Program-made: the position numbers and the translations under genes
Shown here: one piece after another, positions 13,495-57,210 of the stretch
How positions within the stretch are numbered: position 1 is the first letter of the stretch
Layout of the letters: each line of letters begins with the position of its first letter
The notes under the pieces: generated by a model
The model's database searches: none
Told to the model about the DNA's origin: nothing
The model's input: only the letters and a program-made list of their open reading frames with translations
NCBI RefSeq assembly: GCF_013401515.1
Contig: NZ_CP058529.1
Coordinates: 1,674,001-1,738,000 of the forward strand
Origin: Halorarum halophilum
Lineage (GTDB): Archaea > Halobacteriota > Halobacteria > Halobacteriales > Haloferacaceae
Direction of reading: 5' to 3'
Length of the DNA stretch: 64,000 bases

Positions 13495-14517
13495 ATGGCC
13501 AACCTCGGAAAGGTCGACCGCGAGTTCTTCGACGAACTGATCTACCCGAACCTCGGCGCGGACAGGGAGGACGTGACGCTCGAACCCCAGCACGGCGTCG
13601 ACTTCGGCGCGATCGCCGTCGGCGGGCGAAGCGTCGTACTGGCGACGGATCCGGTGTTCGTCATGCCGTCGCTCGGCTTCGAGCGTGCGGCGTGGTTCGC
13701 GTTCCACATCCTGATGAGCGACGTGGCCGTGAGCGGTCTGCCGCCCACCCACCTCTCGATCGATTTCAACCTCCCGCCCGAGATCACCGACGACCAGTTC
13801 CGCACCCTCTGGGAGACGTTCGACCGCGAGGCACGCGATCTCGGCGTCGGCGTCGTCACCGGCCACACCGCCCGCTACGCCGGCTGTAACTACCCGATGG
13901 TCGGCGGCGCGACGGTCCTCGGCGTGGGCGACCCCGACGACGTCGTCCGCCCCGACGGCGCGCGGCCGGGTGACGCCGTCGTCGTCACCAAGGGACCGGC
14001 GATCGAGACGACCGGACTGCTCTCCATCCAGTTCGAGGAGCTACTCGACCTGCCTGCCGACACCGTCGAGGCCGCCCAGGAGCGCTTCTCGGACATGAGC
14101 CCCGTGCGCGACGCGCTGACCGCGGCCGCGGCCGGCGACGTGACCGCGATGCACGACGCCACCGAGTGCGGCGTCTACGGCGGGCTCTTCGAACTGGCGC
14201 GGGCCGGCGGCGTCCGACTCGACGTCAAACGCGACGAGATCCCGGTGCTCCCGGGCGTCCGGGAGATCTGCGACTTCTTCGATATCGACCCGTGGGCGGC
14301 GATCAGCGAGGGAACGCTCCTCTGCACCGTCGCGCCGGGGAACGTCGGGGACGTCCTCGACGCGCTCGACGCCGAGGGGATCCCGGCGGCCGAGGTCGGG
14401 ACGGCGAGCGATGGCGACGGCGTGTACGTGGACGGCGACCGCATCGAACACCCCGGCGTCGACCCCTTCTGGGGCGCCTTCGAGGAGAACATGGAGAAAC
14501 TGGAGGAGAGCTCGTGA
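13495..14517 (+). CDS. AIR synthase-like ATP-binding protein
   Basis: A 340-aa member of the PurM/ThiL/HypE/SelD superfamily. Features include [25 protein letters not shown] (N-terminal strand block), [20 protein letters not shown] (the Asp-rich ATP/Mg region), [22 protein letters not shown], and [21 protein letters not shown] in the second domain. It is not plainly PurM, ThiL or HypE; archaeal copies are often labelled AIR-synthase-related. The earlier ATG at 13468 would place the operator palindrome inside the coding region, so the inner ATG is preferred. It overlaps the ThiD-ThiN gene by 4 nt (GTGA), supporting a shared operon and possibly a thiamine-linked role. Confidence 0.82.
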
Positions 14518-15884
14518 TCCGAACGTCGGCGCCCGAACTCCGGCCTGTTTCGCTCACGATCGCCGGGAGCGACTCGGGCGGCGGCGCGGGGATACAGGCC
14601 GACATCAAGACGATGGAGGCCCGCGGCGCGTTCGCGACCAGCGTGATCACGAGCGTGACGGCACAGAACACGCGCGGCGTGCGAAGCGCGTACACGCTCC
14701 TGCTCGAGGAGATCGAGGCGCAGTACGAGGCGGTCGTCTCCGACTTCGACGTGCGCGCGGTGAAGACGGGCATGCTCGCCGAAGCGCCGGTCGTCGAGCG
14801 CGTGACGGAGTGGGCGGCCGACGTCGACGCTCCCGTCGTCGTCGACCCCGTGATGATCGCGACCTCCGGCGACCGACTACTCGAACCCGCGGGCGAGGAC
14901 GCCTACGAGGCGTTGATCCGGGAGTCCACGCTGGTCACGCCCAACGCGGACGAGGCGGCGGTACTCACCGACGTCAGGCCGGTCGACGCCGAAACGGCCC
15001 GGGAGGCCGGCGAGGTGCTGGTCGACCGCGGCGCGACCGCGGCGCTCGTGAAGGGCGGTCACGTCGAGGGGGAGTCGGTCCGGGACGTGCTCGTGACCGG
15101 CGACGACGTCGAGGAGTTCGTCCACCCGCGGATCGCAACCGACGCGACCCACGGCTCCGGCTGTACCCTGTCGAGCGCCATCGCCGCGAACCTCGCGCAG
15201 GGGGAGTCGCTGAAGCCGGCCGTCGAGCGGGGCGTCGAGTTCACAGAGCGGGCGGTCCGCTACCCGCTGGACGTCGGAGCGGGTTCCGGATCGGTCCACC
15301 ACCTGGCCGAACTCCGCGAGCGGGCCGCCCGCCAGCCGACGGCCGAGCGGGTCGAGGCGGTCGTCCGCGCGTTCGTCGACGCCGACGTCGGCCCGCTCGT
15401 CCCCGAGGTGGGGATGAACGTGGTCGGCGCGACCCCGTACGCCGAGTCGGTCGGCGAGACCGCCGCCGTCGAGGGCCGCATCACGCGTACGCTGGACGGC
15501 GTGCATCCGAACCGCGGCGTCCGGTTCGGGGCCTCCAGCCACGTCGCGCGGTTCCTGCTCGCGACGCGCGAGCGCGACCCGAGCCTGCGGTTCGCCGTCA
15601 ACTGCCGCTTCGACGGGGAGGTCGAGGCGGCGCTCCCCGCGCTCGACGGGCCGGTGAGCGAGTTCGAGCGCGCGGAGGAGCCGGAGGACGTGAAGGCCGA
15701 GGAGGGGAGTACGATGGGGTGGGGCGCCCGTCGGTCGTTCGAGCGAGTCGACGGCACGCCGGTCGCGGTGGTCGACCGCGGGGAGGTCGGGAAGGAGGCG
15801 ATCGTCAAGCTCCTGGCCGACGACGCGGAGACACTGCGCGAGCGGACGCTGTCGTTGCTCGGGGCGGTGGCCGCCGGTGGCTGA
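14514..15884 (+). CDS. thiD: Bifunctional HMP(-P) kinase / ThiN thiamine-phosphate synthase
   Basis: A 456-aa fusion starting at GTG. The N-terminal ThiD (about 15-275) shows [19 protein letters not shown], the [15 protein letters not shown] block and the ribokinase-family anion hole [18 protein letters not shown]. The C-terminal ThiN (about 285-456) shows [15 protein letters not shown] and [19 protein letters not shown]. ThiD phosphorylates hydroxymethylpyrimidine and its phosphate. ThiN joins HMP-PP to thiazole phosphate and replaces ThiE in archaea. The 4-nt overlap with the upstream gene shows translational coupling. It converges with the Gfo/Idh gene. Confidence 0.92.
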
Positions 15885-15908
15885 GGCCGTCCCCCACGCG
15901 CGGAGCCG

Positions 15909-16973
15909 CTACTCCAGCGCCACGTCGTCGGGGTCGACGGCGACGAACGACCCGTCGCCGCGTGCCGACTCGTAGGCCGCCTCGGTGACGGCGGTCACCC
16001 GAAGGCCGTCGAGGGCGGTCGCCACGGGCTTCTCGTCCGTCCTGATCGCGTCGACGAACGCGTCGGCCTTCGTCCGCTGGTCCTCGTACTCGATCCGCGG
16101 GCGGTACTCGCCGCTCTCCTCGTCGATCTCGGCGTACTCGCTCGGCTCCCAGTCCTGGCTGTCGAGCGCGACGGCGCCCTGCCCGTCCCACATCCGCACG
16201 TGCTCGCGCATGCACGGGGTCTCGCCAGAGAGCGAGAACGAGGCCGTTGCGCCGTTCGTGAACCGGACGGTGACGTTCGCTCGGCCGTCGACGCGCTCCT
16301 CGTCGTCGACGAATTCCATGCTCGCCGAGACGGACTCGGGGGTGAGCCGGGTGCTCCACAGCACGCAGTCGAGCAGGTGGCTCCCGGTGTCGTACAGGTA
16401 GCCGCCGCCGGAGAGGTCCGGATTCTGCCGCCAGGTCCCCTCGAAGCGGTCGACCCAGTCCTGACACACCTCGGCGGTGATCCAGCGGGGCTCGCGTCCC
16501 TCCTCGTCCCACACCCCGCGTGCCTCGACGAACGCCTCGTAGAGGTGACGCTGGTAGCCGACCATCAGCACCTCGTCGCGTTCGCGGTCGCGCTCCACGA
16601 GGGCGCGCGCGTCGTCGAGGTCGGTCGTGAGCGGCTTGTCGCAGAGCACGTGGAGGTCGTGCTCGAACGCCGCGAGGACCTGGTCGTAGTGGAGGGTGTG
16701 GGGCGTCCCGATGAGCACCGCGTCGAGCGCCTCGGCGTCGAGCATCGCCGCGTAGTCGGTGTACCTGGAGTCGGCGTCGACCCCCAGTTCGACGCCGGCC
16801 GTTTCGAGGACCCCCTCGTCGATGTCGACGAGCGCGTCGACGCGCGCGTCCTCGTGCTCGACGAACTCCCCGCCCACCGTCGTTCCGATGTACCCACCGC
16901 CGACGACGCCGACCCGGAGTGGGTCTGCCTCGCCGGCATGGGCGGTCTCGCTGTCTACCGCGGTCTCTACCAT
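15909..16973 (-). CDS. Gfo/Idh/MocA family dehydrogenase
   Basis: A 354-aa NAD(P)-dependent sugar or cyclitol dehydrogenase. It has a Rossmann GVVGGGYIGTTVGG near residue 22, IGTPHTLHYDQVLAAFEHDLHVLCDKPL with the catalytic-region Lys (E/D-K-P motif), and the C-terminal beta-sheet domain containing GGGYLYDTGSHLLDCVLWS, with the G-x(3)-D-x-G-x-H pattern. The start at MVETAVDSE gives the usual length. It diverges from a sulfatase-family gene 141 nt away, which suggests sulfated-sugar handling, but the substrate is unknown. Confidence 0.88.
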   Translation of the reverse strand: MVETAVDSETAHAGEADPLRVGVVGGGYIGTTVGGEFVEHEDARVDALVDIDEGVLETAGVELGVDADSRYTDYAAMLDAEALDAVLIGTPHTLHYDQVLAAFEHDLHVLCDKPLTTDLDDARALVERDRERDEVLMVGYQRHLYEAFVEARGVWDEEGREPRWITAEVCQDWVDRFEGTWRQNPDLSGGGYLYDTGSHLLDCVLWSTRLTPESVSASMEFVDDEERVDGRANVTVRFTNGATASFSLSGETPCMREHVRMWDGQGAVALDSQDWEPSEYAEIDEESGEYRPRIEYEDQRTKADAFVDAIRTDEKPVATALDGLRVTAVTEAAYESARGDGSFVAVDPDDVALE

Positions 16974-17114
16974 AGTGGGGACGAGTTCGAGAAGCTCAAA
17001 AGGCGCTGTGGCCCTGACCCTCCGATCCGGCCGACGACCGACTCGCGGACGCGAGGAGATGCGACGTCCCAGTCCGCCGCCCGACTTTACCGTCCCGGGC
17101 CCGAAAGGCACCCG

Positions 17115-18539
17115 ATGGCCGATAGTCGCCCGAACGTCCTCTTCGTCCTGACCGACCAGGAGCGGTACGACTACACGGCCCCTGACGGGCCGCCAGTCGA
17201 GACGCCCGAACTCGACCGGCTGTCGCGGGACGGGGTGCGGTTCGAGCGGGCGTACACGCCGACGAGCATCTGCTCCAGCGCCCGCGCGTCGCTGCTGACG
17301 GGGCTCTACCCCCACAACCACGGGATGGTGAACAACACGCACGAGGCCGACGCCATCCAGCCGAACCTGCCGCCCGACCTCCCAACGTTCGGGGAGGGAC
17401 TCGCCGACGTCGGCTACCGCAACACCTATCTCGGCAAGTGGCACGTCGGCCGCGACCAGACGCCGGACGACTTCGGCTTCTCGTACCTCGGCGGTAGCGA
17501 CGCGCACCACGACAACATCGACAGTGCGTTCGGGGAGTACCGGGCTGACATGGGGGTCGAGGTGGACGAGGCGGACCTGGAGGACCCGATATACACGGAC
17601 GACGGGTCGCTGGTGGCCGCGACCGACCCCGTCCCCGTCGAGGCGACGCGGCCGTACTTCCTCGCGGAGCGGACGATCGAGGAACTCCGCCGGGCGGCCG
17701 ACGCGGACGCCCCGTTCTTCCACCGGACGGACTTCCTCGGCCCGCACCACCCCTACGTCGTCCCCGAGCCGTACGCCTCGATGTACGACCCGGACGAGAT
17801 CGAGCTCCCGAACTCGTACGCCGAGACGTTCGACGGCAAGCCCCAGGTCCACGAGAACTACGTCGACTACCGGGGCGTCAGGGAGTTCGGCCGGGAGACG
17901 TGGGCCGAGGTGATCGCCGCCAACCGGGGGTTCATGACACTCATCGACGACCAGGTCGGCCGGGTACTCAACGCGATCGACGACCTGGGCCTGACCGACG
18001 ACACGGTCGTGGCGCACGCGTCCGACCACGGCGACTTCGTCGGGGGGCACCGCCAGTTCAACAAGGGGCCACTGATGTACGAGGACACCTACCACGTCCC
18101 GCTCCAGATACGCTGGCCCGGCGTCGTCGAGTCGGGGTCGGTGGACGACGTCCCCGTCCGGCTCCACGACCTGATGCCGACGTTCCTCGACGTCTGCGAC
18201 GCCCCGATTCCGGACGGGCTGGACGCCCGGAGCCTCCGACCGCTGCTGGAGGGCGACCGGCCCGACGACTGGCCGGAGGCCGTCGTCTCGGAGTACCACG
18301 GCGACGAGTTCGGGCTCTACACCCAGCGGATGATTCACACCGGCGACTACAAGTACGTCTTCAACTCGCCGGACGTCGACGAGCTCTACGACCTCCGCGA
18401 CGATCCCGCGGAGCTACAGAACCTGATCGAACATCCCGACTTCGAGGCGGTCCGTCGGGACCTGCGCGAGCGACTCGTCGACTGGATGCACGGGACCGAC
18501 GACCCCCTGCGACAGTGGGGGGCGCAGGCCCTCGGGTGA
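17115..18539 (+). CDS. Sulfatase-family hydrolase with CSSAR site
   Basis: A 474-aa alkaline-phosphatase-superfamily enzyme. It opens NVLFVLTDQERYDY (metal Asp14), then SICSSARASLLTGLYPHNHG. Cys53 sits where the formylglycine-forming residue is expected, but the core is C-S-S-A-R rather than C-x-P-S-R. Other metal-site elements are present: GKWHVGRDQ, HASDHGDFVGGHRQFNKGP and YHVPLQIRWPG. No signal peptide is seen, so a cytosolic location is likely. It probably hydrolyses a sulfate or phosphate ester, and maturation by a formylglycine enzyme is unproven. It is tail to tail with a second family member. Confidence 0.87.
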   Translation: MADSRPNVLFVLTDQERYDYTAPDGPPVETPELDRLSRDGVRFERAYTPTSICSSARASLLTGLYPHNHGMVNNTHEADAIQPNLPPDLPTFGEGLADVGYRNTYLGKWHVGRDQTPDDFGFSYLGGSDAHHDNIDSAFGEYRADMGVEVDEADLEDPIYTDDGSLVAATDPVPVEATRPYFLAERTIEELRRAADADAPFFHRTDFLGPHHPYVVPEPYASMYDPDEIELPNSYAETFDGKPQVHENYVDYRGVREFGRETWAEVIAANRGFMTLIDDQVGRVLNAIDDLGLTDDTVVAHASDHGDFVGGHRQFNKGPLMYEDTYHVPLQIRWPGVVESGSVDDVPVRLHDLMPTFLDVCDAPIPDGLDARSLRPLLEGDRPDDWPEAVVSEYHGDEFGLYTQRMIHTGDYKYVFNSPDVDELYDLRDDPAELQNLIEHPDFEAVRRDLRERLVDWMHGTDDPLRQWGAQALG

Positions 18540-18540
18540 G

Positions 18541-20004
18541 TCAGCGGTAGCCGAGTTCGGCCAGTCTGTCCAGCGTCGCGTCGGCGATGTCGTCGTCGCC
18601 GGCTCCGGCGTCGGGGTCGGCGTGCTCGAACGACGCCAGCCACTCGTCGAGCCGGTCGTCGAGCCGCCGAACCACCCGGGGTTCCTCGGCACTCCTGTCG
18701 ACCGTCTCGTACGGGTCCCGGTCGACCCGGTACAGTTCCCGTTCACCGTCGCCCCCGCGGACGTACTTCCACCGGCGCGTCCGGACCGTCCGGAGGGTTC
18801 GGTAGTAGTCGCTGACGTTGGCGGCAGCTTCCCCGAACCGCGACTCCAGCGCCTCCATCGGCGGCTGCGGGGCGAGGTACTCCGCGAACACTGCCTCGCG
18901 AGGCTCGCTCGTGGCGCCGGAGTGGAGCGACCGACCCTGCTGCTGGTCGCGGAACGCCGGCGCGTCGATCCCAGCCGCGTCCAGGAGCGTCGCGGGAAGG
19001 TCCAGGAGCTGCACCAGCTCCTCGCGGCGGCAGTCACCGTCGAACGACCCGCCGGAGACGACGAGCGGGACGTGCAACGCGGTGTCGTACACGTTGTACT
19101 GGTGGCCGAAGAGCCCGTGGTCGCCGACGTTCTCGCCGTGGTCGCCGCAGACGGCGATCACGGTGTCGTCCCACTCCCCCGCGTCGGCGAGCGCGGTCCG
19201 CAGTTCGGCGAGGTGCTCGTCCACGTACGACATCTCCCCCCTGTAGAGCCCTCGCAGCGCCGCGAACTCCTCGTCGCTCAGGTCGTACTCGCCCACGTCG
19301 AACGCGCGCGGTTCCTGGCGGATCTCCGTCGCCTCCTCGTAGCTCACCCCGTCGGGGAGGTACGGCTCCGCGTGCTCCCGGGGCGGGTCGTAGGGGACGT
19401 GCGGCTCCAGGAAGTTGAGGAAGAGGAAGAACGGGCGGTCGTCGTCGCGTCCGCCGAGCCAACGCCGGACGTGGTCGTTCGTCCGGGCCCCGCCGTCGGC
19501 GCCCGCCGGCTGGAACACCTCGCTGTAGAGGAGGTTCGCGACGTTGACCAGCGGGCTCCCCTCGAACAGCCGCTCCCTCGCGGCCTCTACCGTTCCGGAG
19601 AGCGACTTCGACCGGACGACGGGCCCGAGGTCGACGTCCGACTGGACGTACTGCCAGCCGCGGTGGAGCCGGTCGAAGCCGCGGTCGAAGTCGAACTCGT
19701 CGGTGATCCACGTGTTGTTCGAGAAGCCGACCGTCTCGTAGCCGGCGTCCGAGAAACACTCGGGGAGTGTCCGCAACGAGGTGCCGAGCGCGGGGTTCTC
19801 GCCGTGCGTGCCGTGCTTCGACGAGTAGGTTCCAGTGAACAAGGAGCCGTGGGATGGGACCGTCCACGGGGCGCTGCTGAACGCGTTCGCGAACAGCGTC
19901 CCCTCGCGCCCGAGCGCGGTCAACGTCGGGGCGACGTCCTCGCTCGCGTCGCGGGCGCGCATCGTGTCCATCACGACGAGGACGACGTTGGGCCGTCCCG
20001 TCAT
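18541..20004 (-). CDS. Sulfatase-like hydrolase with Thr at the nucleophile site
   Basis: A 487-aa member of the same superfamily. It opens PNVVLVVMDTMRARDAS (metal Asp13), and the nucleophile region reads SAPWTVPSHGSLFTG. The residue aligned with the formylglycine Cys/Ser is Thr48, and the Arg of C-x-P-S-R is His52. Later metal-site motifs are intact (EPHVPYDPP, CGDHGENVGDHGLFGHQYNVYD). Thr or Ser at this place is typical of phosphoesterase or phosphotransferase relatives, so this may be a phosphoglycerol-transferase-like or phosphonate/phosphodiester enzyme. Its stop abuts that of the other sulfatase gene. Confidence 0.85.
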   Translation of the reverse strand: MTGRPNVVLVVMDTMRARDASEDVAPTLTALGREGTLFANAFSSAPWTVPSHGSLFTGTYSSKHGTHGENPALGTSLRTLPECFSDAGYETVGFSNNTWITDEFDFDRGFDRLHRGWQYVQSDVDLGPVVRSKSLSGTVEAARERLFEGSPLVNVANLLYSEVFQPAGADGGARTNDHVRRWLGGRDDDRPFFLFLNFLEPHVPYDPPREHAEPYLPDGVSYEEATEIRQEPRAFDVGEYDLSDEEFAALRGLYRGEMSYVDEHLAELRTALADAGEWDDTVIAVCGDHGENVGDHGLFGHQYNVYDTALHVPLVVSGGSFDGDCRREELVQLLDLPATLLDAAGIDAPAFRDQQQGRSLHSGATSEPREAVFAEYLAPQPPMEALESRFGEAAANVSDYYRTLRTVRTRRWKYVRGGDGERELYRVDRDPYETVDRSAEEPRVVRRLDDRLDEWLASFEHADPDAGAGDDDIADATLDRLAELGYR

Positions 20005-23959: not shown

Positions 23960-24748
23960 ATGTCAGCACCGAGGCTCGGATTCGTCGCACAGACGCACAC
24001 GGGAGCGGTCGAGTACGACGACCTCGTGGCCGCGGGCGCCACGGAGGGGTTCGACTTCGTCGAGTTGTACATGGACGGCGCCACGGAGCGCCGCGCCCTC
24101 GATCCGGAGAGGATCGAGACGCTGCACGAACGGCACGGGCTCGATCTCGCGGTTCACCTGCCGTTCGTCGACCTCGACCTGGGATCGCCGCGACCGCTGG
24201 TCCGCGAGGCGTCCCGGCGCGAACTCGAAGCCTGTCTCGACGCGGCGGCCGAGATGGGCGCCGAGAAGGCCGTCCTCCACGCCGACACGGACGCGACGCC
24301 GCCGGAGTTCGGCCGGGAGTCGGTCCTCCCGCACGCGCTCGAGTCGATCGAGCGACTGGACGCCTACGCGGACGACGCGGGCGTCGAGGTCTGCGTCGAG
24401 AACCTGCCCGGTCGGCTGTTCTCGACGTACGACTTCGACGTCCTGACGGCAGAGACCGACGCGTCGCTCACCCTCGACACGGGGCACGCGCGCGTCGACG
24501 GGCTGGACGAGGCGGAGATGGCCGACGCGCTCCGGGAGTTCGACGACCGTATCTCGCACGTCCACGTCAACGACTCGCGGGTCCCGGAGGACGAGCACGT
24601 CCCGGTCGGCTCCGGCACGATCGACTTCGAGCGGGCGTTCCGGCCCGTCCGCGATGGCGACTGGGACGGGACGCTCTCGGTGGAGGTGTTCACGTTCGAC
24701 TTCGACTACGTGGCGACGAGCCGACGGAAACTGGAAGCGTGGCTCTGA
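23960..24748 (+). CDS. Sugar phosphate isomerase/epimerase-like TIM barrel
   Basis: A 262-aa xylose-isomerase-like barrel. Metal-site elements are visible: FVELYMDG (first Glu), AEKAVLHADTDAT (His), VEVCVENLPGRLFSTYD (Glu), LTLDTGHARVDG (D-T-G-H), ISHVHVNDSR (His/Asp) and LSVEVFTFDFDY (last Glu). These are the Glu/His/Asp set of the AP endonuclease 2 / isomerase fold. The substrate is unknown; family members epimerise or isomerise sugars and polyols. The next gene starts inside its last codons, so it is coupled to the glycerophosphotransferase-like enzyme and may supply a polyol precursor. That last point is inference. Confidence 0.83.
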   Translation: MSAPRLGFVAQTHTGAVEYDDLVAAGATEGFDFVELYMDGATERRALDPERIETLHERHGLDLAVHLPFVDLDLGSPRPLVREASRRELEACLDAAAEMGAEKAVLHADTDATPPEFGRESVLPHALESIERLDAYADDAGVEVCVENLPGRLFSTYDFDVLTAETDASLTLDTGHARVDGLDEAEMADALREFDDRISHVHVNDSRVPEDEHVPVGSGTIDFERAFRPVRDGDWDGTLSVEVFTFDFDYVATSRRKLEAWL

Positions 24749-25923
24749 GCGAGCGACTCGAGGACGTACTCGAGGCCGCGTCGTTCCTGCTCGGGACGCT
24801 CCTCTACGCGCTCCTGGCTGTCCTCTCGCCGCTCTGGCCGCGCCGGGACGACCTCTGGGTGTTCGGCGCGCGCGGCGGCGCGGACTTCGTCGACAACGCG
24901 AAGTACCTGTTCACGTACGTGAACGCCGCCGAACCGGACGTTCGCGCCGTCTGGCTCACGAAGAACCCCGAGGTCGCCGCGTCGCTGCAGCGCGCCGGGT
25001 ACGAGGCGTACCGCGCCCGGTCGCTCCGGGGGGTGTGGCTGAACCTGCGGGCCGGCACGGCCTTCCTCACCCAGGGACTCAGGGACCTGAACCTGCCGTG
25101 TCTGGCGGGCGCGTTCGTCGTCCAGCTCTGGCACGGGGTCCCGCTGAAGACGATCGGGTGGGACGCCGAGATCGCGGAGCACACGCTGCCGGTCCGAGCC
25201 GCGCACGCGTTCCTCGCCGACTCGATCGACGTCGTCACGGTCACCGCCGAGGCGCTCCGAACCCCGTTCGCGACCGGGCTTCGGGTGCCCCCCGAGCGCA
25301 TCGCCGTCACCGGCTACCCGCGGCACGACGGGTTGCTCGGACGGCTTCCCGACATGGACGACGCCGGTGGGACGGACGCGAACCGGGGGATTCCGGAGGA
25401 CGCGTTCGTCTTCTACTACCTGCCGACGTTTCGCGGCGGCGACGGCGCGCCGCTCGACGAGCACCTCGACCTGGCGGCGCTCGACCGGACGATGTCGTCG
25501 ATCGACGCGCACCTCGTCGTGAAGTTCCACCCCGACGAGCCGATCGCGGTCGGGGAGACGCTCGATCGGGTCACCGTCGTCCCCGAATCGGTCGACGTCT
25601 ACCCGTTGCTCAAGCGCGCGGACGCGCTGCTGACCGACTACTCCTCGGTCCTGTTCGACTTCCTCCTCCTCGACCGGCCGGTCGCCTTCTACGCGTACGA
25701 CCTGGCGCACTACCGCGAGGACCGCGGCTTCTACTTCGACTACGACGAGGTTACTCCCGGCCCGGTCGCGACCGACCTCGAGGAACTGCGCGCGGCACTG
25801 CGGTCGATCCGCGACGGCGACGAGTTCGCGGCCGAACGCCGGGCGGTGCGAGACCACTTCCTGCGCGACCCCAAGCGGTGCTACTCCGCGGCGGTGGTCG
25901 AAGCGGTCCGGGAGCGGCGCTGA
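24739..25923 (+). CDS. CDP-glycerol glycerophosphotransferase (TagB/TagF) family protein
   Basis: A 394-aa GT-B-like enzyme starting at GTG, 10 nt inside the upstream gene. An N-terminal hydrophobic helix (AASFLLGTLLYALLAVLSPL) suggests membrane association. Family motifs are QLWHGVPLKTIGWDA (catalytic-region His), TGYPRHDGLL, VFYYLPTFRGGDGAP, VVKFHPDEP, and the nucleotide-end LTDYSSVLFDFLLLDRPVAFY. Relatives transfer glycerol-phosphate or ribitol-phosphate from CDP-activated donors to teichoic acid or capsule. In this archaeon it points to a polyol-phosphate surface polymer or decoration; donor and acceptor are unknown. Confidence 0.87.
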   Translation: MALSERLEDVLEAASFLLGTLLYALLAVLSPLWPRRDDLWVFGARGGADFVDNAKYLFTYVNAAEPDVRAVWLTKNPEVAASLQRAGYEAYRARSLRGVWLNLRAGTAFLTQGLRDLNLPCLAGAFVVQLWHGVPLKTIGWDAEIAEHTLPVRAAHAFLADSIDVVTVTAEALRTPFATGLRVPPERIAVTGYPRHDGLLGRLPDMDDAGGTDANRGIPEDAFVFYYLPTFRGGDGAPLDEHLDLAALDRTMSSIDAHLVVKFHPDEPIAVGETLDRVTVVPESVDVYPLLKRADALLTDYSSVLFDFLLLDRPVAFYAYDLAHYREDRGFYFDYDEVTPGPVATDLEELRAALRSIRDGDEFAAERRAVRDHFLRDPKRCYSAAVVEAVRERR

Positions 25924-25950
25924 CCGCCGGACTGGTCGGCGGTAAGCAAC

Positions 25951-25976
25951 CTTTAATAACCCGCTTGCTTAGCGGG
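25951..25976 (+). promoter_or_regulatory. TATA-like box and small hairpin ahead of the GDPD gene
   Basis: CTTTAATAAC (25951-25960) is followed at once by CCCGCT-TGCTT-AGCGGG (25960-25976). The box is about 55 nt from the ATG, so a short leader with a hairpin, or a terminator for the upstream gene followed by a promoter, are both possible. Confidence 0.35.
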
Positions 25977-26013
25977 CGAACGAGCCGCGGACGTCGTGCG
26001 GCACGAACTGTAG

Positions 26014-26919
26014 ATGACGAACGCGAACCCGGTACTGCCGCGGAACGACCGACGTGGGGAGCGTGGAGTGACCGTAATCGCGCACAGGGGGTTCGGCGGC
26101 CTGTACCCGGAGAACACGGTGGACGCCGTCGAGCGAGCGACCGTCGGGAGCGACGCCGCGGACGCCGTCGAGATCGACGTGATGCCGACCGCGGACGGCC
26201 GGGTCGTCGCCTTCCACGACGAGACGCCCGCCCGCGTGACCGGCGTTCCCGGCGACCTGGCGGACCGACCGATCTGGGAGACGCCGTACGACACACTCCG
26301 CGATCTCGACGTGCTCGGCACGGGACGGGGGATCCCGACGCTCCCGGCCGTCCTCGACGCCGTCCCGACCGACGTCCCCGTCAACATCGAGTTCAAGAAC
26401 CCCGGGAGCGCGGACGTCCGCTTCGCGGAGTGTCTCGGCGAGCGCGCGCTCGAACGCGCCCGGGAGCGATGGTCTCCGTTCGCCGAGCGCGTCCTCGACG
26501 CGGTCGACGTCACGGGGCACGACGTGCTCGTCTCCTCGTTCTGTGAGGGAGCGATCGCCGCGATCAAAGCGGTCGACCCGTCGGTCCCAGTCGCGAGCGT
26601 CGTCTGGGACTCGCTCGCCGACGGCCTGGCGATCGCCCGCCGGCACGACTGTGAGGCGCTCCACGTGCCCCGTACCGCCGTGCAGGGGACCTCTTTCTAC
26701 GGCGCGGACTATCACGTCGAGGGGTGGCGAGAGGGGGTCGACGTCGTCGCAGCGGCCCGGGGGGAGGGACGCGCCGTCCACGCGTGGACGGTCACGAACT
26801 GGCGGCAGGCCGCGGAACTCGCGGATGCCGGGGTGGACGCCATCATCGCGGACTACCCCGGCCTGCTGCGGTACGACCCGGGGCGGAGCGGCGTGAACGT
26901 CGCAGGGAGCGACGACTGA
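26014..26919 (+). CDS. Glycerophosphodiester phosphodiesterase
   Basis: A 301-aa GDPD-family TIM barrel. The signature is VIAHRGFGGLYPENTVDA (His-Arg, then Glu-Asn) followed by AVEIDVMPTADGRVVAFHDETPARVTG, with the metal Glu-x-Asp and catalytic His. Later come VNIEFKNPG, VLVSSFCEGAI and the end VHAWTVTNWRQAAELADAGVDAII. It cleaves glycerol-phosphodiesters, releasing glycerol phosphate. No signal peptide is visible. Its place between a TagB/F-like enzyme and a nucleotidyltransferase-HAD fusion suggests turnover or recycling of a glycerophosphate polymer or lipid head group. Confidence 0.9.
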   Translation: MTNANPVLPRNDRRGERGVTVIAHRGFGGLYPENTVDAVERATVGSDAADAVEIDVMPTADGRVVAFHDETPARVTGVPGDLADRPIWETPYDTLRDLDVLGTGRGIPTLPAVLDAVPTDVPVNIEFKNPGSADVRFAECLGERALERARERWSPFAERVLDAVDVTGHDVLVSSFCEGAIAAIKAVDPSVPVASVVWDSLADGLAIARRHDCEALHVPRTAVQGTSFYGADYHVEGWREGVDVVAAARGEGRAVHAWTVTNWRQAAELADAGVDAIIADYPGLLRYDPGRSGVNVAGSDD

Positions 26920-27077
26920 CCCGCCGGCCGGGGTGCGCGCGTGCTCGGGCTCGACGAAGTGGTGAGTAACCCATCGGCTTCTGGACGTCTTCGAGCGGGG
27001 GAACGGAGCGACCCGGACACCAAACGTTACTATAGAAGTCCCTACGTCTCCCGAGGTAGGGAACGTGATATAGAATA

Positions 27078-27106
27078 GCGCGAACGTACGTTCGGGTACG
27101 TCGCGC
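27078..27106. promoter_or_regulatory. Palindrome upstream of the NTase-HAD gene
   Basis: Contains the perfect 14-nt palindrome CGAACGTACGTTCG (27081-27094). Alternatively, GCGCGAACGTAC (27078-27089) pairs with GTACGTCGCGC (27096-27106) with one bulge. It lies about 50-75 nt ahead of the ATG and just upstream of a TATA-like CTTATCC, where an activator site or an upstream terminator would fit. Confidence 0.4.
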
Positions 27107-27153
27107 TTTCCAACCCCGCTCTTATCCGCTTGCGTGGCGGTCCGCATCGTACG

Positions 27154-28734
27154 ATGAAAGCAGTAATTCTCGCCGCTGGCGTTGGGTCTCGCCTCCGACC
27201 TATCACGCTGGACCGACCGAAGTGCTGCGTGACGGTCGACTCGGTTCCGATCCTGGAACGGCAACTGCGAGGGTACGCCGAGGCCGGCGTCGACGAGGTA
27301 CACGTGGTCGCGGGCTACCTGGCCGACCAGGTTCGAACGCTCGGCCGGGCGGTGGCGAGTGACCTGCCGGGCGTGACGGTCACCGTCCACGAGAACGAGA
27401 CGTACGCGAACACCGACAACATGTACTCGCTGTCCATCGTCCGCGAACAGGTCGGGGGCGAGCCGTTCCTCCTGAGCAACGGGGACGTCGCGTGCGACGA
27501 GGCGATCTTCAGCGAGCTCACCTCCCGGAGCGACGGGAGCGCTATCGCGTGCAACGCGTCGGTGTACGAGGAGGAGGCGATGAAGGTGACCGTGGACGAC
27601 GACCGGCTTGTCGACCACATCGCCAAGGACGTCCCGCGGAGCGAGGCGCACGCGACCTCGCTTGACGTGTATCGATTCTCCGCCTCGTGTTCGGCGCGAC
27701 TGTTCGAGGCGATCCGGCGACGGGTCGAGGTCGAGGGCGCGTACGACCACTGGACGGAGCTGGCCATCGACGACGTCGTCTCCCGCGACGGGCACGACGT
27801 CGAACCGGTCGACGTCGGGGACGTCCCGTGGGTCGAGGTGGACGACCTCGCGGACCTGCTCGCGGCCGACCGGTCGTTCGCGTCGATGGCGCCGCTCGCC
27901 ACGAAGGACGCGGTGTTCTTCGACCTCGACGGGACCGTCTACGTCGACGACGAACCCGTCGAGGGGGTGGCCGACCTCGTCGCCGACCTCCGGGCGGCGG
28001 GGACCGAGGTGTTCTTCCTCTCGAACAACTCGTCGAAGTGGAAGACGAACTACGCGGAGACGCTCACCGGGATGGGCATCCCCGCGGACGAGGACGAGGT
28101 GATCCTCTCGACGGACGCGGTGCTCGACTACCTCGACGACGAGGGCGTGACGTCGTCGTACGTCGTCGGCACGGAGGCGATGCGGGCGGCCGTCGAGCGG
28201 GCGGACGTCGATCCCGAGGCCGACGACCCGGAGGTCGTGGTGGTGGGCTTCGACACCGAACTCACGTACGAGAAGACGCGGCGCGCGACGCTGGCGATCC
28301 GGGACGGCGCGAGCTTCCTCCTCGCCCACCCCGACCTCGTCTGCCCGACGGGCGAGGGACTCGTCCCCGACTGTGGCTCCATCGGTGCGCTCGTCGAGAC
28401 GGCCGCCGGCCGCGAACCGGATCGGGTCTTCGGGAAGCCGAACCCGGAGATGGTACGGACCGCGATGGCGACGAGCGGGCTCGACCCCGACGACGTCGCC
28501 GTCGTCGGCGACCGGATCGGGACCGACATCGCGCTCGCCGAGGCGCTCGGCTGCGAGTCCGTCTGCGTGCTGACCGGCGACGCCGACCGCGCGTCGGTCG
28601 AGACCGCCAGCATCCGGCCGACGCTCGTCGTCGAGAACGTCGGCGAGTTGCGGCGGCCGGGCCTGCTCGTCGAGCACGACGGCACGCAGTCGGTTCCGTC
28701 CGAGGCGTCCGGCGCCTCCGGGGCGTCCCAGTAG
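27154..28734 (+). CDS. Nucleotidyltransferase - HAD-IIA phosphatase fusion
   Basis: A 526-aa two-domain protein. Residues 1-240 are a sugar/alditol-phosphate nucleotidyltransferase: VILAAGVGSRLRPITLDRPK (NTP loop with catalytic Arg and Lys), then LLSNGDVACDEAIF in place of the usual D-x-D, and a C-terminal YDHWTELAIDDV resembling LicC/GCT-like enzymes. Residues about 248-500 are HAD subclass IIA (NagD/glycerol-phosphatase type): VFFDLDGTVYVDDEPVEG, FLSNNSSKWKTNYAETL, FGKPNPEMV and VVGDRIGTDIALAEALG. The tail is Ser/Ala-rich. The likely role is making a CDP- or NDP-activated polyol for the neighbouring TagB/F-like transferase, with the HAD part trimming a phosphate. That role is inference. Confidence 0.85.
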   Translation: MKAVILAAGVGSRLRPITLDRPKCCVTVDSVPILERQLRGYAEAGVDEVHVVAGYLADQVRTLGRAVASDLPGVTVTVHENETYANTDNMYSLSIVREQVGGEPFLLSNGDVACDEAIFSELTSRSDGSAIACNASVYEEEAMKVTVDDDRLVDHIAKDVPRSEAHATSLDVYRFSASCSARLFEAIRRRVEVEGAYDHWTELAIDDVVSRDGHDVEPVDVGDVPWVEVDDLADLLAADRSFASMAPLATKDAVFFDLDGTVYVDDEPVEGVADLVADLRAAGTEVFFLSNNSSKWKTNYAETLTGMGIPADEDEVILSTDAVLDYLDDEGVTSSYVVGTEAMRAAVERADVDPEADDPEVVVVGFDTELTYEKTRRATLAIRDGASFLLAHPDLVCPTGEGLVPDCGSIGALVETAAGREPDRVFGKPNPEMVRTAMATSGLDPDDVAVVGDRIGTDIALAEALGCESVCVLTGDADRASVETASIRPTLVVENVGELRRPGLLVEHDGTQSVPSEASGASGASQ

Positions 28735-45019: not shown

Positions 45020-46403
45020 ATGTCATCACGTTTCACGGACGTCTCCTTTCTTACGGACGTCGTCCCCGAGGACCAGGTCGAGACCGACCCTGACGCTCTC
45101 GACGCGTACGCCGGGGACGAGGGCCCGCACCCCGCTCGCCGGCCGGACGCCGTCGTCCACGCGCACGGCACCGACGACGTCTCCGCCGTCCTCGCGGCCT
45201 GTCACGACCGCGACGTTCCCGTCACGCCTCGTAGTGGCGGATCGAGCATCGAGGGGAACCCCATCCCCGTCGCCGGCGGCGTCGTCCTCGACACGTACCC
45301 GATGGACGACGTGGACGTCCGCCCCGCGGACCGCCTCGCCGTCACCGGCCCGGGCGTGGTCTACGACGACCTGAACGACCACCTCGCGCCCTACGAGCTC
45401 CGGTTCGCGCCCGGTATCGCTGCCGGCAACCTCGCCACCGTCGGCGGGATGATCGCGAACGACGCAAGCGGTCTGAATGCCGTGAAGTACGGCGTCACCG
45501 CCGACCACGTCCGCCACCTCGAAGTCGTGCTCGCCGACGGCAGCATCATCGAGTTCGGGCGCAGTGTCGCAAAGTCGGCGTCCGGCTACCGCCTCAAGGA
45601 CGTGTTCGTTGGGAGCGAGGGCACCCTCGGCGTCGTTACCGAGGCGACGCTCGCGCTCGAACCCCGGCCCATCGAACGTCGCGCCGCGCTCGCTACCTTC
45701 CCAACCCGCGAAGCCGCGGGAGACGCCGTCGCGAACGTCATGGCCGGCCCGCTCACCCCCGGCGCGCTCGAGTACCTGGACAGCGCGGCCGCTCGCCTCC
45801 TCGACGAAACGAACGATGCCGGCCTCCCGGACGCTCCCCAGCTGATCGTGGAACTCCACGGGACGAACGACGGCGTGGCAGCCGACCTCGACGTCGTCCG
45901 GGACGCATGCGAGGACGCGGGCTGTACGGGGTTCGAGACTGCGACCGAGGCCGAGATCGACCGTCTGTGGGCGGCCCGCCGCGACGTGTACCCCGCTGCC
46001 TGTGACTACCGTGAGGACGCCACCGTCGCGTTCATCGGGGACGTGGTCGTCCCCGTCTCACGCTACCCGGATCATCGTCGCGCGCGCCGCCCGGCTCGCC
46101 GACGAACTCGACGTCACCGCGCCCTGCGTCGGCCACGCCGGTGACGGCAACCTCCACTTCCTCCCCGTCGCGAACCTCGACGACCCCGAGGAACGCGACC
46201 GCGCGATGGAACTCAACGACCGCATGGTGCGGGCCGCTCTCGACCTCGGCGGCACGTCCACTGGCGAACACGGCGTCGGCATCGGGAAGCGAAAGTTCAT
46301 GCGGGAGGAACACGCCGCTGCTGTCGACGTCATGCGCGATCTGAAGGACACGCTCGACCCCGAAGGCGTCTTGAATCCCGGAAAAGTCCTCCCGGAGGAG
46401 TGA
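45020..46403 (+). pseudogene. Frameshifted FAD-binding oxidase (GlcD/D-lactate dehydrogenase type)
   Basis: Two frames join to make one 460-codon FAD-linked oxidase. Frame 1 (to about 46072) has PRSGGSSIEGNPIPVAGGVV, GIAAGNLATVGGMIANDASG (FAD-binding PCMH domain) and VFVGSEGTLGVVTEATLALE, ending VAFIGDVVVPVSRYPD. Frame 2 resumes IVARAARLADELDVTAP, CVGHAGDGNLHFLPV and STGEHGVGIGKRKFM, ending LNPGKVLPEE. One extra base near 46072-46074 explains the break. The remainder is well preserved, so it is either a recent mutation, a sequencing error or programmed slippage. It would oxidise glycolate or another 2-hydroxy acid. Confidence 0.8.
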
Positions 46404-46428
46404 GTTCACTGCCGCGTGAGCGCGCCGC

Positions 46429-46821
46429 TCAGGCCGACGACTCGACCTTGTAGACGCGGCCGGGGAACTCCGCGACGAGATCACCCGCCTCGTCCCGCAC
46501 GGCGACGGCGTAGAGGGCGGTGCGCCCTCGGTCGTGTCGCCGCTCGGCGCTGGCGGCGAGCGTCTCCCCGACCCCGCACGCTTCGAGGTAGGACATCGAC
46601 GTCTCGAGGGCGACGGCATCCACGTCGGCGGCGTTCTCGGCGGCGTCGAACGCCGCGTCTGCGAGCGTGTAGAGCGCCCCGCCGTGCGGCGTCCCGTGGA
46701 CGTTCAGATGTGACTCGGCGAGCGTCAGTTCCGCCGTCGCGGCGCCGTCCGACGCCCGCACGAGGTCGACGCCCACGCGCTCACGGAACGGGTCGTCCGC
46801 CGAATCCGGGCGCTCCGCCAT
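46429..46821 (-). CDS. PaaI-type hotdog thioesterase
   Basis: A 130-aa acyl-CoA thioesterase. Residues around SHLNVHGTPHGGALYTLADAA contain the family N-x-x-G-x-x-H-G-G-x-x-x-x-x-x-D core with the catalytic Asn and Asp. The C-terminal strand block is GRTALYAVAVRDEAGDLVAE. It hydrolyses hydroxyphenylacetyl-CoA or similar thioesters. Lying beside a PaaK-like remnant and a broken glcD-type oxidase, it may be the surviving member of an aromatic-acid or hydroxy-acid locus. Confidence 0.88.
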   Translation of the reverse strand: MAERPDSADDPFRERVGVDLVRASDGAATAELTLAESHLNVHGTPHGGALYTLADAAFDAAENAADVDAVALETSMSYLEACGVGETLAASAERRHDRGRTALYAVAVRDEAGDLVAEFPGRVYKVESSA

Positions 46822-47656
46822 GTCCGTTGGGTGCGCGGGCGTCGAGTGTAAGGATTCGCCTCGGGTGGGTCTGAACAGTGCGGTTCCCGTTCGGTTTCGG
46901 TTCTCGTGAAGTAGAACGTGTGGCGTCGATCACGTCCGCAGGTTCCGGAAGACCTCCCTCATCCAACCCGTGAACTCGCAGACCGGTTGGCGCCGATCCA
47001 GGTATCGACCCCGTTCGACCTCCTCTCCGTCTGGCATCCCGTCGTAATCGGAATCCGTGTTGATCGGCCCGTGTCGTACGTCTCGTGCTCGATTCTGTCG
47101 GAAAGGCTGTCCCCATCGGTGTCCGGGTTCGTGGGGCCGTCACCCGATTCGGGCCAACCATACTTCTTCTGCTGGTCGGGCGTCGAACAGTCTCATGAGA
47201 ACGTCGGGGGCAATCGCGAGTGAGGTGCAGGGGCACATACCCAAAAACTCGGGCGCGGACTGAGTTTGGTGTAGCGTCGGGTCGAATAGTGAGGAATGGA
47301 TCGGTACGTATGGAGTGCGTAGATACCGAGCCGAATATCGATCTTCCAGTAGTCCAGCAGTAAGAGCGTGCTGCATACAGCAGATGGATGCAGTAATCGG
47401 TCGGCGTTCGTTTCGAGCCAGCAGCGACGGAACAGCCGCTACGTAAGTCTGCAAACCTGTAGCTACGAATACATCCATTACGTCGGATATAGTGGAGACA
47501 GGTCCGTTTGGAGAGCGATTGTTGTCTCTCTGCGTCCTCTCGGAGTCGAGTTTCTCGAACCACACGACCACGTACGCAATCTTGACCTCGAAGTGGGCAG
47601 TATGCGGAATAATGTGGTAAGAGCAGCAATTTGCACACATCGCCTATCTACTGGCT
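46822..47656. other. Spacer with decayed coding DNA
   Basis: About 830 nt with lower GC. The left part holds the calcium-repeat remnant (annotated separately). The right part, about 47200-47656, has no continuous acidic frame and no hairpin or terminal repeat that I could recognise. Confidence 0.5.
46930..47192 (-). pseudogene. Remnant of a calcium-binding (thrombospondin type-3-like) repeat protein
   Basis: Minus-strand frames read KKYGWPESGDGPTNPDTDGD and SLSDRIEHETYDTG. After a frameshift near 47065 they continue INTDSDYDGMPDGEEVERG and RYLDRRQPVCEFTGW to a stop. The paired N-P-D-T-D-G-D-S-L-S-D and D-S-D-Y-D-G-M-P-D-G-E-E motifs are classic type-3-like Asp-rich calcium loops of secreted archaeal proteins. 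There is no start and no signal peptide, so this is a decayed fragment. Confidence 0.6.
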
Positions 47657-48469
47657 ATGCGGGAACAGAGGCCATCGGTTACTCGTCGTGGGATGCTCGC
47701 ACTCACCGGCGCAGCCGCCCTGGCTGGGCGTTCGAGAGCGACTCCGAGAACGCATCAACCGCGCCAAGACACCACCCAGGAAGACGGGACACAACAGATG
47801 GAGACCGTTCGGGCCTTTGTCGGATCGTACCACTGGGGATACTTCCTGCTGGACGAGGACGGCGAGGAACTCGACCAGTTGACGCTCTCGTCGGGCGACG
47901 AACTGCGGCTCACCCTCTTCAACGTGGAAGCCGACGCCGCGGTCGAGGCCCTCCCGCAGGCAGTTCGAACGAACGTTCCGAGTTCGGATGAACGCGCGCG
48001 GCGAAACGAACAGGCGGTCCAGGTTCCACGGGGGACGACCCTCGACGCCCTGCACGACGCGGCCGAGGCCGCGTATCCGGACCACAGTCTCGCCATCCTC
48101 GACGACGAGCTTCTGGGGAACGGGCCCGGCGGTCCCGGACAGGGACCGGGGGGCGGCCACCACGGTCCCCATGGCGGACCCTCCGGCCCCGGGAACGGAC
48201 GGGGACCAGGCCAGGAACCCGGTGGCGGCGGACCGGGACAGGGGCCGGGGGGCGGCCACGGCCCCGGAATGCCGGGGTCGTGCTGGGGTGGCGTGTGCGG
48301 CGGAACGCTCGCCCCGCCAGCGTACCTCTGGCACCACTCGACGGTGCCCACCGAACTCGGGTTCGTGGTGAACACGACCGGGTCGTTCGGGTTCGTCTGC
48401 ACGGTCTACTGCGGGTACGGCCACCCGTACATGGTCGAACCCGGCCGTGTCGTCGTATCCGAGAACTGA
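47657..48469 (+). CDS. Tat-exported CuA-like (COX2-type) cupredoxin with Gly/Pro/His insert
   Basis: A 270-aa protein. The twin-arginine signal is VTRRGMLALTGAAALAG (R10-R11), followed by a Gln/Thr-rich linker. The domain first half, VRAFVGSYHWGYFLLDEDGE, then LSSGDELRLTLFNVEADAAV, parallels VHVEAIAYQWNWEM and LIVLPVDQDVYITV of CoxB. About 60 residues of Gly/Pro/His repeats follow (residues ~154-214), then SCWGGVCGG. The end is FVVNTTGSFGFVCTVYCGYG with HPYM: C248, C252, H256 and M259 match the CuA spacing of CoxB exactly. The first CuA His is not obvious, so copper binding may be altered. Confidence 0.72.
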   Translation: MREQRPSVTRRGMLALTGAAALAGRSRATPRTHQPRQDTTQEDGTQQMETVRAFVGSYHWGYFLLDEDGEELDQLTLSSGDELRLTLFNVEADAAVEALPQAVRTNVPSSDERARRNEQAVQVPRGTTLDALHDAAEAAYPDHSLAILDDELLGNGPGGPGQGPGGGHHGPHGGPSGPGNGRGPGQEPGGGGPGQGPGGGHGPGMPGSCWGGVCGGTLAPPAYLWHHSTVPTELGFVVNTTGSFGFVCTVYCGYGHPYMVEPGRVVVSEN

Positions 48470-48851
48470 GTCTCACAAGGAAACCAGAAATGTCCGGAAG
48501 CTCAGCTGGTGGTCCCAAGCGCAGACACGTCCGACAAGCTGGGTGGATTGCTAAACTGCGAGGTACATCATTCCCCTGTACTTAGCAATAGACCGCTCCG
48601 TTACCCGGTGTGAGAAGTGTGCTGTAGTCGCGCCCTGTATTCAGCATGCTCTTGACGATCTACTCGACATCTATCAAAGGAGCGTACTGACTATAGGGGA
48701 TACGCGCAGTAGAGCGTTCCCGAGAGATCACGGGGCATTCGAGATACCACGCAAATCACGGAATAGACGGACTTCTGAAGGCAAGTGAAGGCATCGTCCG
48801 GGTGCGAAGTAGAAGAACTAACTTTACTCGAGAGCGTCAACACCCAAACGG
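48470..48851. other. Spacer with a bulged inverted repeat
   Basis: About 380 nt at lower GC. No credible ORF was seen. A bulged hairpin occupies 48547-48589 (annotated separately). The final 40 nt before the acetyltransferase contain the AT-rich TAACTTTACTCG, a likely promoter element. Confidence 0.5.
48547..48589. repeat. Bulged inverted repeat
   Basis: ATTGCTAA (48547-48554) plus GTACA (48563-48567) pair with TGTACTTAGCAAT (48577-48589): 13 bp broken by an 8-nt bulge on the left arm. Such imperfect hairpins occur at ends of IS200/IS605 elements and in terminators, but no transposase gene is present. Confidence 0.4.
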
Positions 48852-49724
48852 ATGGGGTACGAGTATAGCGGCGACGCCCACGGAGAACTCGTCGAGTCCT
48901 ATCGAGCAGACGAACCGCCCTTCCCGACGGACACCTCCAGGAACTATCCTCGGCGCGATTCTCTGCGTGACGAACCACCTTTACTCAAACAGCTCCTGTT
49001 TCCCCAGTGCTGGAACGCGACTGAGTTGCTGGACGATCCTGACGAAACTCGTGCCCGCCTGACCGAGCTCGGAATCTGCATACACAAGGGCATCACGGCC
49101 TATTCGGGTCACGACGCGGACGATTTGACCGCGACCGTCGACAGGACGCTCGACCAGTTGCCAGCGATTCGACGTCACCTCAAGAAGGATGTCGAGGCCG
49201 CGTACAAGGGCGATCCCGCGGCGAAGAGCTACTGTGAGATCATCCGATCGTATCCCGGTTTTCACGCCATCCTGACTCACCGAGTGGCGCACATCCTCTA
49301 CGAGGAGGACCGCTTCAAGTACGCCCGTGAACTCGCTGAGTACTCGAAGGTTGAGACGGGAATCGACATCCATCCAGGTGCGGAGATCTGCGAGTATTTC
49401 TTCGTCGATCATGGGACCGGGGTCGTCATCGGCGAGACGGCGACGGTCGGCGACTGGGTCCGGATCTACCAGAACGTCACTCTCGGCGCCCTCCACTTCG
49501 AGGAGGAGGAGGGCGAGAACCATATGCTGGCGAAGGACTACAAGCGCCATCCCGACATCGGTGATCACGTCGTCATCGGCGCCGGAAGCAACGTACTTGG
49601 GCCGGTAGAGATCGGCGACCATGTGAGCATCGGTGCGAACTCGTGGGTGACCGACGACGTTCCGGACAACACGAGTGTATTCATCAGCGATCACCCCGAC
49701 CAGGAGCGGAAATCGAACAGATAG
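48852..49724 (+). CDS. cysE: Serine O-acetyltransferase
   Basis: A 290-aa acetyltransferase that makes O-acetylserine for cysteine synthesis. The N-terminal helical domain runs to about residue 150 (KDVEAAYKGDPAAKSYCEII). The left-handed beta-helix then shows GIDIHPGAEICEYFFVDHGT, GVVIGETATVGDWVRIYQNV with TLGALHF following, and HPDIGDHVVIGAGSNVLGPV then SIGANSWVTDDVP. The active His residues are in HPG and the D-H-G-T-G region. It is of the longer EpsC-like type, with an 80-residue amino extension. No cysteine synthase is adjacent. Confidence 0.92.
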   Translation: MGYEYSGDAHGELVESYRADEPPFPTDTSRNYPRRDSLRDEPPLLKQLLFPQCWNATELLDDPDETRARLTELGICIHKGITAYSGHDADDLTATVDRTLDQLPAIRRHLKKDVEAAYKGDPAAKSYCEIIRSYPGFHAILTHRVAHILYEEDRFKYARELAEYSKVETGIDIHPGAEICEYFFVDHGTGVVIGETATVGDWVRIYQNVTLGALHFEEEEGENHMLAKDYKRHPDIGDHVVIGAGSNVLGPVEIGDHVSIGANSWVTDDVPDNTSVFISDHPDQERKSNR

Positions 49725-49887
49725 CTGGCTGTGGAATCTCGGACGGTACCCGGAACCATGCGGTTACAAAGCGCTGTCTGGTTACCGGCACTTTCGTCGT
49801 GACTGTCTTGTGGGATACGCACTCTGTATGCAGCGCAGCTCCAGAAACCGATCCATCGCTTGAGGGCTTCGACAAGGCCACCACATA

Positions 49888-55011: not shown

Positions 55012-55085
55012 CAGCTTGATAGGGAAGGATTGTTTCTTGCCTGTATGCATCGCGGTCGCTGCCGACGACCCACGAGAGACGAACC

Positions 55086-55730: not shown

Positions 55731-55837
55731 CTATAGAGGGCCCCACCATTCCAGCAGTTCCATCATTCACCGTCCTTCGAATGAGGTGAGCGGGTCGCGA
55801 ATACGCCTCGTTTGAGGTGTCGTCTTCCGCCGGGTCG

Positions 55838-56515: not shown

Positions 56516-56635
56516 GCGACCCACAACGCGATCGCGGCGGCAACCGGGCTCTCCGAGACGACCGTCGGAGAGCACCTCCGGAAGATCGAGGCGACCGTGT
56601 TCTCGTCGCTCCACGTTGGTACCACCGATCGCTGA
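56513..56635 (+). pseudogene. C-terminal fragment of an HTH-10 regulator
   Basis: Plus-strand reading LATHNAIAAATGLSETTVGE, then HLRKIEATVFSSLHVGTTDR and a stop: the recognition helix and tail of a Bat-type HTH-10 protein. The rest of the gene is absent; the frame upstream is the antisense of the glycosyltransferase. The two fragments overlap within a few bases, marking a recombination junction. Confidence 0.6.
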
Positions 56636-57175: not shown

Positions 57176-57210
57176 GGTCAGAGACACAGACCTGTTTCGT
57201 TCCAGGATCT

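Follow-up and report, generated by a model that had tools for sequence, protein, structure and literature searches.

A conserved haloarchaeal gene cassette predicted to activate, transfer and recycle an alcohol phosphate

RESULTS AND DISCUSSION

A four-gene cassette in Halorarum halophilum

The 64,000-nucleotide stretch of Halorarum halophilum DNA analyzed here (contig NZ_CP058529.1, positions 1,674,001 to 1,738,000 of the forward strand; hereafter, the window) carries four genes on a single strand at positions 23960-28734, encoding a TIM-barrel protein, a glycerophosphotransferase (GPT), a glycerophosphodiester phosphodiesterase (GDPD), and a fusion of a nucleotidyltransferase (NTase) with a HAD-IIA phosphatase. 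Judged from its protein families and active sites, this cassette would form a module for the activation, transfer, and recycling of an alcohol phosphate, most likely glycerol-phosphate, a reading toward which we lean with appreciable reserve. A preliminary description of the window had proposed a teichoic-acid-like polymer locus at the same place. Its four genes were confirmed at these coordinates, with the Pfam scores of all four products lying far over the family cut-offs, and its interpretation is supported for a linked unit that could activate and transfer a polyol phosphate but not for an isomerase role of the TIM barrel or for a polymer. The four genes are as follows:

23960..24748, + strand: TIM-barrel protein (PF01261), probable metal-dependent phosphodiesterase (Pfam AP_endonuc_2, 5e-39; alternative start at 23939)
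24739..25923, + strand: GPT, a TagB/TarF-type (glycerol)phosphotransferase (PF04464) with a single catalytic domain and an N-terminal hydrophobic helix (Pfam Glyphos_transf, 1.3e-61)
26014..26919, + strand: GDPD (PF03009), no signal peptide apparent (Pfam, 9.3e-32)
27154..28734, + strand: fusion of a LicC-like NTase (residues 1-245) and a HAD-IIA phosphatase (residues 250-500) (Pfam NTP_transf_3/NTP_transferase and Hydrolase_6/Hydrolase_like)

Linkage and distribution across genomes

The grouping of these genes is beyond chance. Among the 170 genomes searched in the window's family (Haloferacaceae), GPT homologs of near 50% identity are present in ten other genomes from three genera, the remaining matches being one short fragment (genome G049) and three weaker ones, and a full-length fusion (57-60% identity) is found in exactly those ten. 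All ten keep the order TIM-GPT-GDPD-fusion on a single strand, at two genomic sites, neither of which is the window's site; all three genera are other than that of the window. Across the order, the fusion occurs in 39 of 392 genomes (10 of 95 genera); a GPT accompanies it in all 39, compared with 34 of the 353 others (Fisher p ~8e-34, a descriptive value that overstates independence, the carriers being phylogenetically related). The preliminary description had made its proposal depend on the genes being kept together in relatives, and they are. The repeated pairing of NTase and GPT in two architectures and at several sites is a stronger argument than the p-value itself.

The GPT gene lies within 5 kb of the fusion in 34 of the 39 genomes, and among 32 genomes checked, the GDPD gene stands beside the fusion in 29 and the TIM gene belongs to the cassette in 23. 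Carriers include Halegenticoccus, Halohasta, Haloprofundus, Halorussus, Haladaptatus, Halomarina, and a Natronomonas metagenome-assembled genome; the TIM gene of Halorussus and Haladaptatus is found on the opposite side of the fusion. In the GPT tree, a single clade (support 96/96) takes in all 22 fusion-paired GPTs and one unpaired member. Genes of the relatives were called with a simple custom script, and small genes were possibly missed. Beyond the haloarchaea, full-length fusion homologs of ~35% identity were found in three genomes of another family of the same phylum (loci L152, L153, L154, and L155, one genome having two copies); one of these copies adjoins glycosyltransferases and a type I phosphodiesterase-family gene.

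The second architecture was seen in GPT-bearing genomes that have no fusion. In 19 of these, a stand-alone NTase of the same subfamily (E<1e-108) is present and adjoins GPT in 19 of 19 cases, and none at this threshold was found in the fusion genomes or the GPT-less genomes of the search. Fused and stand-alone forms are homologous over the whole NTase length (hhalign probability 100, E 8.7e-46), and the top structure for the stand-alone form is LicC (1jyk, 1.5e-28), with PntC and inositol-1-phosphate cytidylyltransferases next. A TagD-type enzyme (TIGR01518) exceeded the cut-off in none of 80 haloarchaeal genomes (best ~42 bits versus 165.4), and two of the control genomes passed the same cut-off. 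Since the NTase is paired with GPT in both forms and resembles LicC, and no TagD-type enzyme passes its cut-off in the tested genomes, the simplest reading is that it makes the CDP-alcohol used by GPT.

Several of the GPT-only loci that were inspected have GT2, GT61, and GT4 glycosyltransferases, a polysaccharide flippase, and a polysaccharide deacetylase nearby. The genome of the window itself holds a second, divergent PF04464 gene (L138:8433-10066, contig C2), followed by an NTase gene. Several haloarchaea also have, next to their GPT loci, members of a protein family of ~300 amino acids (L111:6040-6987, L111:10285-11244, and L133:9827-10750); the two members scanned gave no Pfam match, and the family is possibly another part of surface-glycan modification.

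The nucleotidyltransferase-HAD fusion and the glycerophosphotransferase

In a profile search, the top PDB match of the NTase domain was the CTP:phosphocholine cytidylyltransferase LicC (1jyk, 6.5e-21), which outranked sugar-1-phosphate NTases, and 2-aminoethylphosphonate (PntC) and inositol-1-phosphate cytidylyltransferases were also matched by both the fused and stand-alone forms. Both acidic motifs are present, and residues D111, E228, and D230 are invariant in relatives. The NTase half is thus a LicC-like CTP:alcohol-phosphate cytidylyltransferase by homology, with CTP as its predicted nucleotide. The HAD part scored 127.6 bits against TIGR01460 (cut-off 100.15), retains the HAD-IIA motifs (DxD, Asn/Ser loop, Lys, and GD) with D257, D259, N291, K428, and D453 invariant in relatives, and matches 1vjr, mammalian PGP, and the mycobacterial glycerol-phosphate phosphatase Rv1692. 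An AlphaFold2 model of the fusion (pLDDT 88) returned HAD structures only in a fold search and is uninformative on the NTase half. In plasmid records searched for the fusion, no match reached 80% coverage, and those listed align with the HAD part only.

GPT scored 209 bits against the PF04464 profile (cut-off 22.1). Its best solved-structure match in a profile search was Staphylococcus epidermidis TagF (3l7i, 3e-43), with the WHG motif and the second catalytic histidine paired; the catalytic histidines H132 and H264, aligned to those of TagF, are invariant in 11 of 11 relatives. The protein is ~390 amino acids long with one domain and a hydrophobic segment at residues 10-28. TarF was its top NCBIfam model, at a score far under the TarF and TarB equivalog cut-offs, and TarL and Bcs3, also of PF04464, match the GPT profile as well. 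By profile and catalytic histidines, GPT is a PF04464 member with predicted transfer activity, and this family is known for the use of CDP-glycerol and CDP-ribitol. The pairing with a LicC-like cytidylyltransferase would suit the activation and transfer of a polyol phosphate, as the preliminary description had supposed.

The TIM-barrel protein and the glycerophosphodiester phosphodiesterase

Nine positions of the TIM-barrel protein (H66, H107, E147, D173, H176, H202, D211, H213, and E242) are invariant in 15 of 15 relatives and correspond to the nine ligands of the trinuclear metal site of endonuclease IV. Alignment with the Mycobacterium tuberculosis enzyme (5zhz) covers eight of them, all matching, and MJ1311 has all nine. 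In fold searches with the AlphaFold2 model (pLDDT 87), the closest overall folds were ketose 3-epimerases and also MJ1311; an epimerase function was set aside, the extra metal ligands being those of endonuclease IV. The preliminary description had cast this protein as an isomerase making a polyol phosphate, a fair guess by fold. Because the nine endonuclease IV-type ligands are kept, we favor a putative metal-dependent phosphodiesterase or phosphatase over an isomerase. The nearest curated family is CbiR (NCBIfam NF041277), an enzyme for hydrolysis of the nucleotide loop of cobamides (PMC7733943); at 93.2 bits, the TIM-barrel protein falls just under the family's cut-off of 105. Paralogs away from the cassette occur in many haloarchaea, cassette-free ones included (for example, G102:C1:2240672-2241403 and G103:C1:3503414-3504151).

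Enzymes of the GDPD family cleave glycerophosphodiesters. The cassette's GDPD scored 111.5 bits against PF03009 (cut-off 23.6), its catalytic residues H24, R25, E53, D55, H68, and E126 (HR...E.D...H) are invariant in 11 of 11 relatives, and no signal peptide is apparent in its sequence, which makes the turnover of a surface polymer, as previously suggested for it, unlikely.

Proposed mechanism

In the mechanism that we propose, the LicC-like NTase half would use CTP to form a CDP-alcohol. The product is probably CDP-glycerol, made from either sn-glycerol-1- or 3-phosphate, and the enzyme would fill the role that TagD has in bacteria. The membrane-associated GPT, working at the cytoplasmic face, would then attach the alcohol-phosphate to a glycolipid or lipid-linked glycan through one of its hydroxyls, as a single unit or a small number of them, like TagB, TarF, and the capsule transferase Cps7A. 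GDPD and the TIM barrel, which resembles endonuclease IV and CbiR, may hydrolyse glycerophosphodiesters that are misplaced, in surplus, or being turned over. The HAD-IIA half may dephosphorylate the resulting alcohol phosphate or else trim or proofread the NTase substrate. The use of CTP, the acceptor, and the direction and substrates of the three hydrolases are inferred; glycerol is favored as the alcohol because PF04464 is known for CDP-glycerol as well as CDP-ribitol, GDPD enzymes act on glycerophosphodiesters, and HAD-IIA enzymes act on glycerol-phosphate or phosphoglycolate, which is circumstantial. In Archaeoglobus lysates, CDP-glycerol is formed from glycerol-1-phosphate (PMC8262930).

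Several observations weigh against such a module. Among the LicC relatives, the substrate may be choline, aminoethylphosphonate, or inositol phosphate, so that homology leaves the alcohol unfixed. TIM is absent from the cassettes of two families (f4 and f5) and GDPD is not beside the fusion in 3 of the 32 genomes; being missing in some carriers, each would be dispensable to the cassette. The non-haloarchaeal fusions are not adjacent to GPTs, with PF04464 genes elsewhere in two of the three genomes, and about 15 of the 34 GPT-only genomes have no stand-alone NTase at E<1e-108. The fusion cassettes lie outside glycan clusters, and three hydrolases with one synthetic pair would be unusual for a pure decoration system. 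No assayed enzyme of this clade was found in the open-access literature searched.

Alternative explanations

A teichoic-acid-like polymer on the haloarchaeal envelope, with GPT polymerizing poly(glycerol-phosphate) and GDPD turning the polymer over, is possible but not favored, and we regard it as improbable. The polymerases TagF and TarL belong to GPT's family, TagF being the best structural match, and one family member, from Methanobrevibacter ruminantium, carries a teichoic acid biosynthesis annotation (PMC5816558). However, a single-domain protein of this length resembles TagB/TarF rather than the polymerase TagF, the top NCBIfam model is likewise the transferase TarF (though far under its cut-off), and GDPD has no apparent signal peptide. 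No genes for priming (TagO/TagA), export (TagGH), or attachment (LCP) were noticed in the cassette or in the conserved neighborhood of the window and its relatives, no genome-wide profile search for these families having been made. Scarcely more probable, in our view, is a soluble glycerophosphodiester, serving as a compatible solute or phosphate store, that is made and degraded in the cytosol by a logic like that of glycerophosphoinositol. All four products look cytosolic or membrane-peripheral, and CDP-alcohol synthesis, transfer, dephosphorylation, and diester hydrolysis are the activities of that pathway. The glycerophosphoinositol transferase, however, belongs as far as is known to the CDP-alcohol phosphotransferase family and not to PF04464, and relatives of GPT lie in several GPT-only loci within surface-glycan clusters. 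The discussion of an earlier study notes that CDP-1-glycerol serves archaeal glycerophosphoinositol synthesis (PMC8262930).

To each of two further alternatives we give a minor but real chance. The same logic could operate on another alcohol-phosphate (choline-, ethanolamine-, ribitol-, or inositol-phosphate, or 2-linked glycerol), as the NTase matches to LicC, PntC, and inositol-1-phosphate cytidylyltransferase and the GPT profile matches to TarL and Bcs3 would allow; the co-conserved GDPD and HAD-IIA families point instead to glycerol, and no LicD was seen in the cassette. Alternatively, the TIM barrel could be a passenger outside the module, acting as a common sugar isomerase/epimerase or as a cobamide enzyme of the CbiR type. 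Its epimerase-like fold, its score near the CbiR cut-off, its paralogs in many cassette-free genomes, and the f4 and f5 cassettes that do without it are consistent with this, whereas the nine invariant ligands, the overlap of its stop with the GPT start in the window, and its presence where the cassette has moved to new loci, also on the opposite flank of the fusion, argue for membership.

Locus layout, insertion site, and neighboring genes

GPT starts at a GTG at 24739, and its 10-nt overlap with the TIM stop makes it probable that the two are translated together. The fusion starts at ATG 27154, as in relatives. Because the gaps of ~90 nt before GDPD and ~235 nt before the fusion both hold AT-rich, promoter-like stretches (judged by eye), tight coupling applies to TIM-GPT only, and it is not certain that all four genes form one operon.

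Downstream of the fusion lie sucC and then sucD. In two same-genus and two other family genomes, the flanking genes adjoin with no cassette, sucCD being grouped with a PIG3-type quinone oxidoreductase and/or an SDR. The backbone is therefore conserved, and the cassette has either been inserted into it as an optional element or been lost from it repeatedly. The same neighbors flank the cassettes of Halorussus and Haladaptatus. Occurring together in the absence of the cassette in same-genus and same-family genomes, the quinone oxidoreductase, the SDR, and sucCD were ruled out as parts of the system. In one same-genus genome (G103, L156:6162-7220), a FemAB-like/GNAT gene sits at the cassette's place, between sucC and the quinone oxidoreductase.

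Elsewhere in the window, positions 13495-20004 hold AIRS-like, ThiD-ThiN, and two sulfatase-family genes; this block is absent between the orthologous neighbors in two same-genus genomes, which suggests an insertion or rearrangement. At positions 46000-62000, GC content drops from ~0.69 to 0.61-0.64, in a region that holds genes for a PPDK-like protein and a serine acetyltransferase-like protein, possibly an acquired region.

Implications

The cassette was not found described in any of the titles and abstracts retrieved from the open-access literature in searches on CDP-glycerol or on teichoic acids of haloarchaea. A more specific scheme, which we offer tentatively and consider rather unlikely in all its parts, is an undescribed haloarchaeal CDP-glycerol pathway in which the LicC-like NTase-HAD, possibly acting on sn-glycerol-1-phosphate, would supply a TagB-like transferase that places glycerol-1-phosphate on envelope glycolipids or S-layer glycans under the control of two dedicated phosphodiesterases. 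If true, it would be an archaeal mirror-image counterpart to bacterial glycerol-3-phosphate surface chemistry. The stereochemistry of glycerol-phosphate in archaeal membranes is opposite to that in bacteria, and the isomer used by the enzyme would therefore bear on the lipid divide. The cassette is also a clearly defined candidate, open to experimental testing, for alcohol-phosphate (teichoic-acid-type) chemistry in the envelopes of haloarchaea, one in which the donor would be made by an enzyme from a family other than the bacterial one. Since the module is patchy (NTase fused or stand-alone; the same site with or without the cassette), natural cassette-free relatives exist for comparison.

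Comparison with known systems

The archaeal pathway to the osmolyte glycerophosphoinositol shares with the proposed module the logic of synthesis, transfer, and a phosphatase, and the use of CDP-glycerol (PMC8262930). The two differ in that the osmolyte transferase is, to our knowledge, of another family. CbiR, endonuclease IV, and MJ1311 share with the cassette's TIM-barrel protein the barrel and conserved His/Asp/Glu metal ligands, from which its metal binding is predicted; unlike CbiR, it scores under the CbiR cut-off and stands in a context of alcohol-phosphate transfer, not cobamide synthesis. We know of no report of a GDPD or a TIM barrel in the glycerophosphoinositol pathway.

Closest to GPT are TagB/TarF and Cps7A, with which it has in common the Pfam family, a single catalytic domain, and the WHG and second histidine motifs, and whose CDP-glycerol-dependent transfer to a lipid-linked acceptor may be expected of GPT too. 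TagB and Cps7A add a first or single glycerol-phosphate to a glycolipid (PMC11666461). In the cassette, by contrast, the activating partner is LicC-like instead of TagD, and the GPT of the window lies outside any teichoic-acid or capsule cluster. The NTase shares the motifs LAAG.G.RL.P.T..PK, N..YSL, and a terminal EID with LicC and PntC, and the matched PntC entry is likewise fused to another enzyme domain. It differs from both in its fusion to a HAD-IIA phosphatase and from LicC, whose usual partner is LicD, in being paired with a transferase of PF04464.

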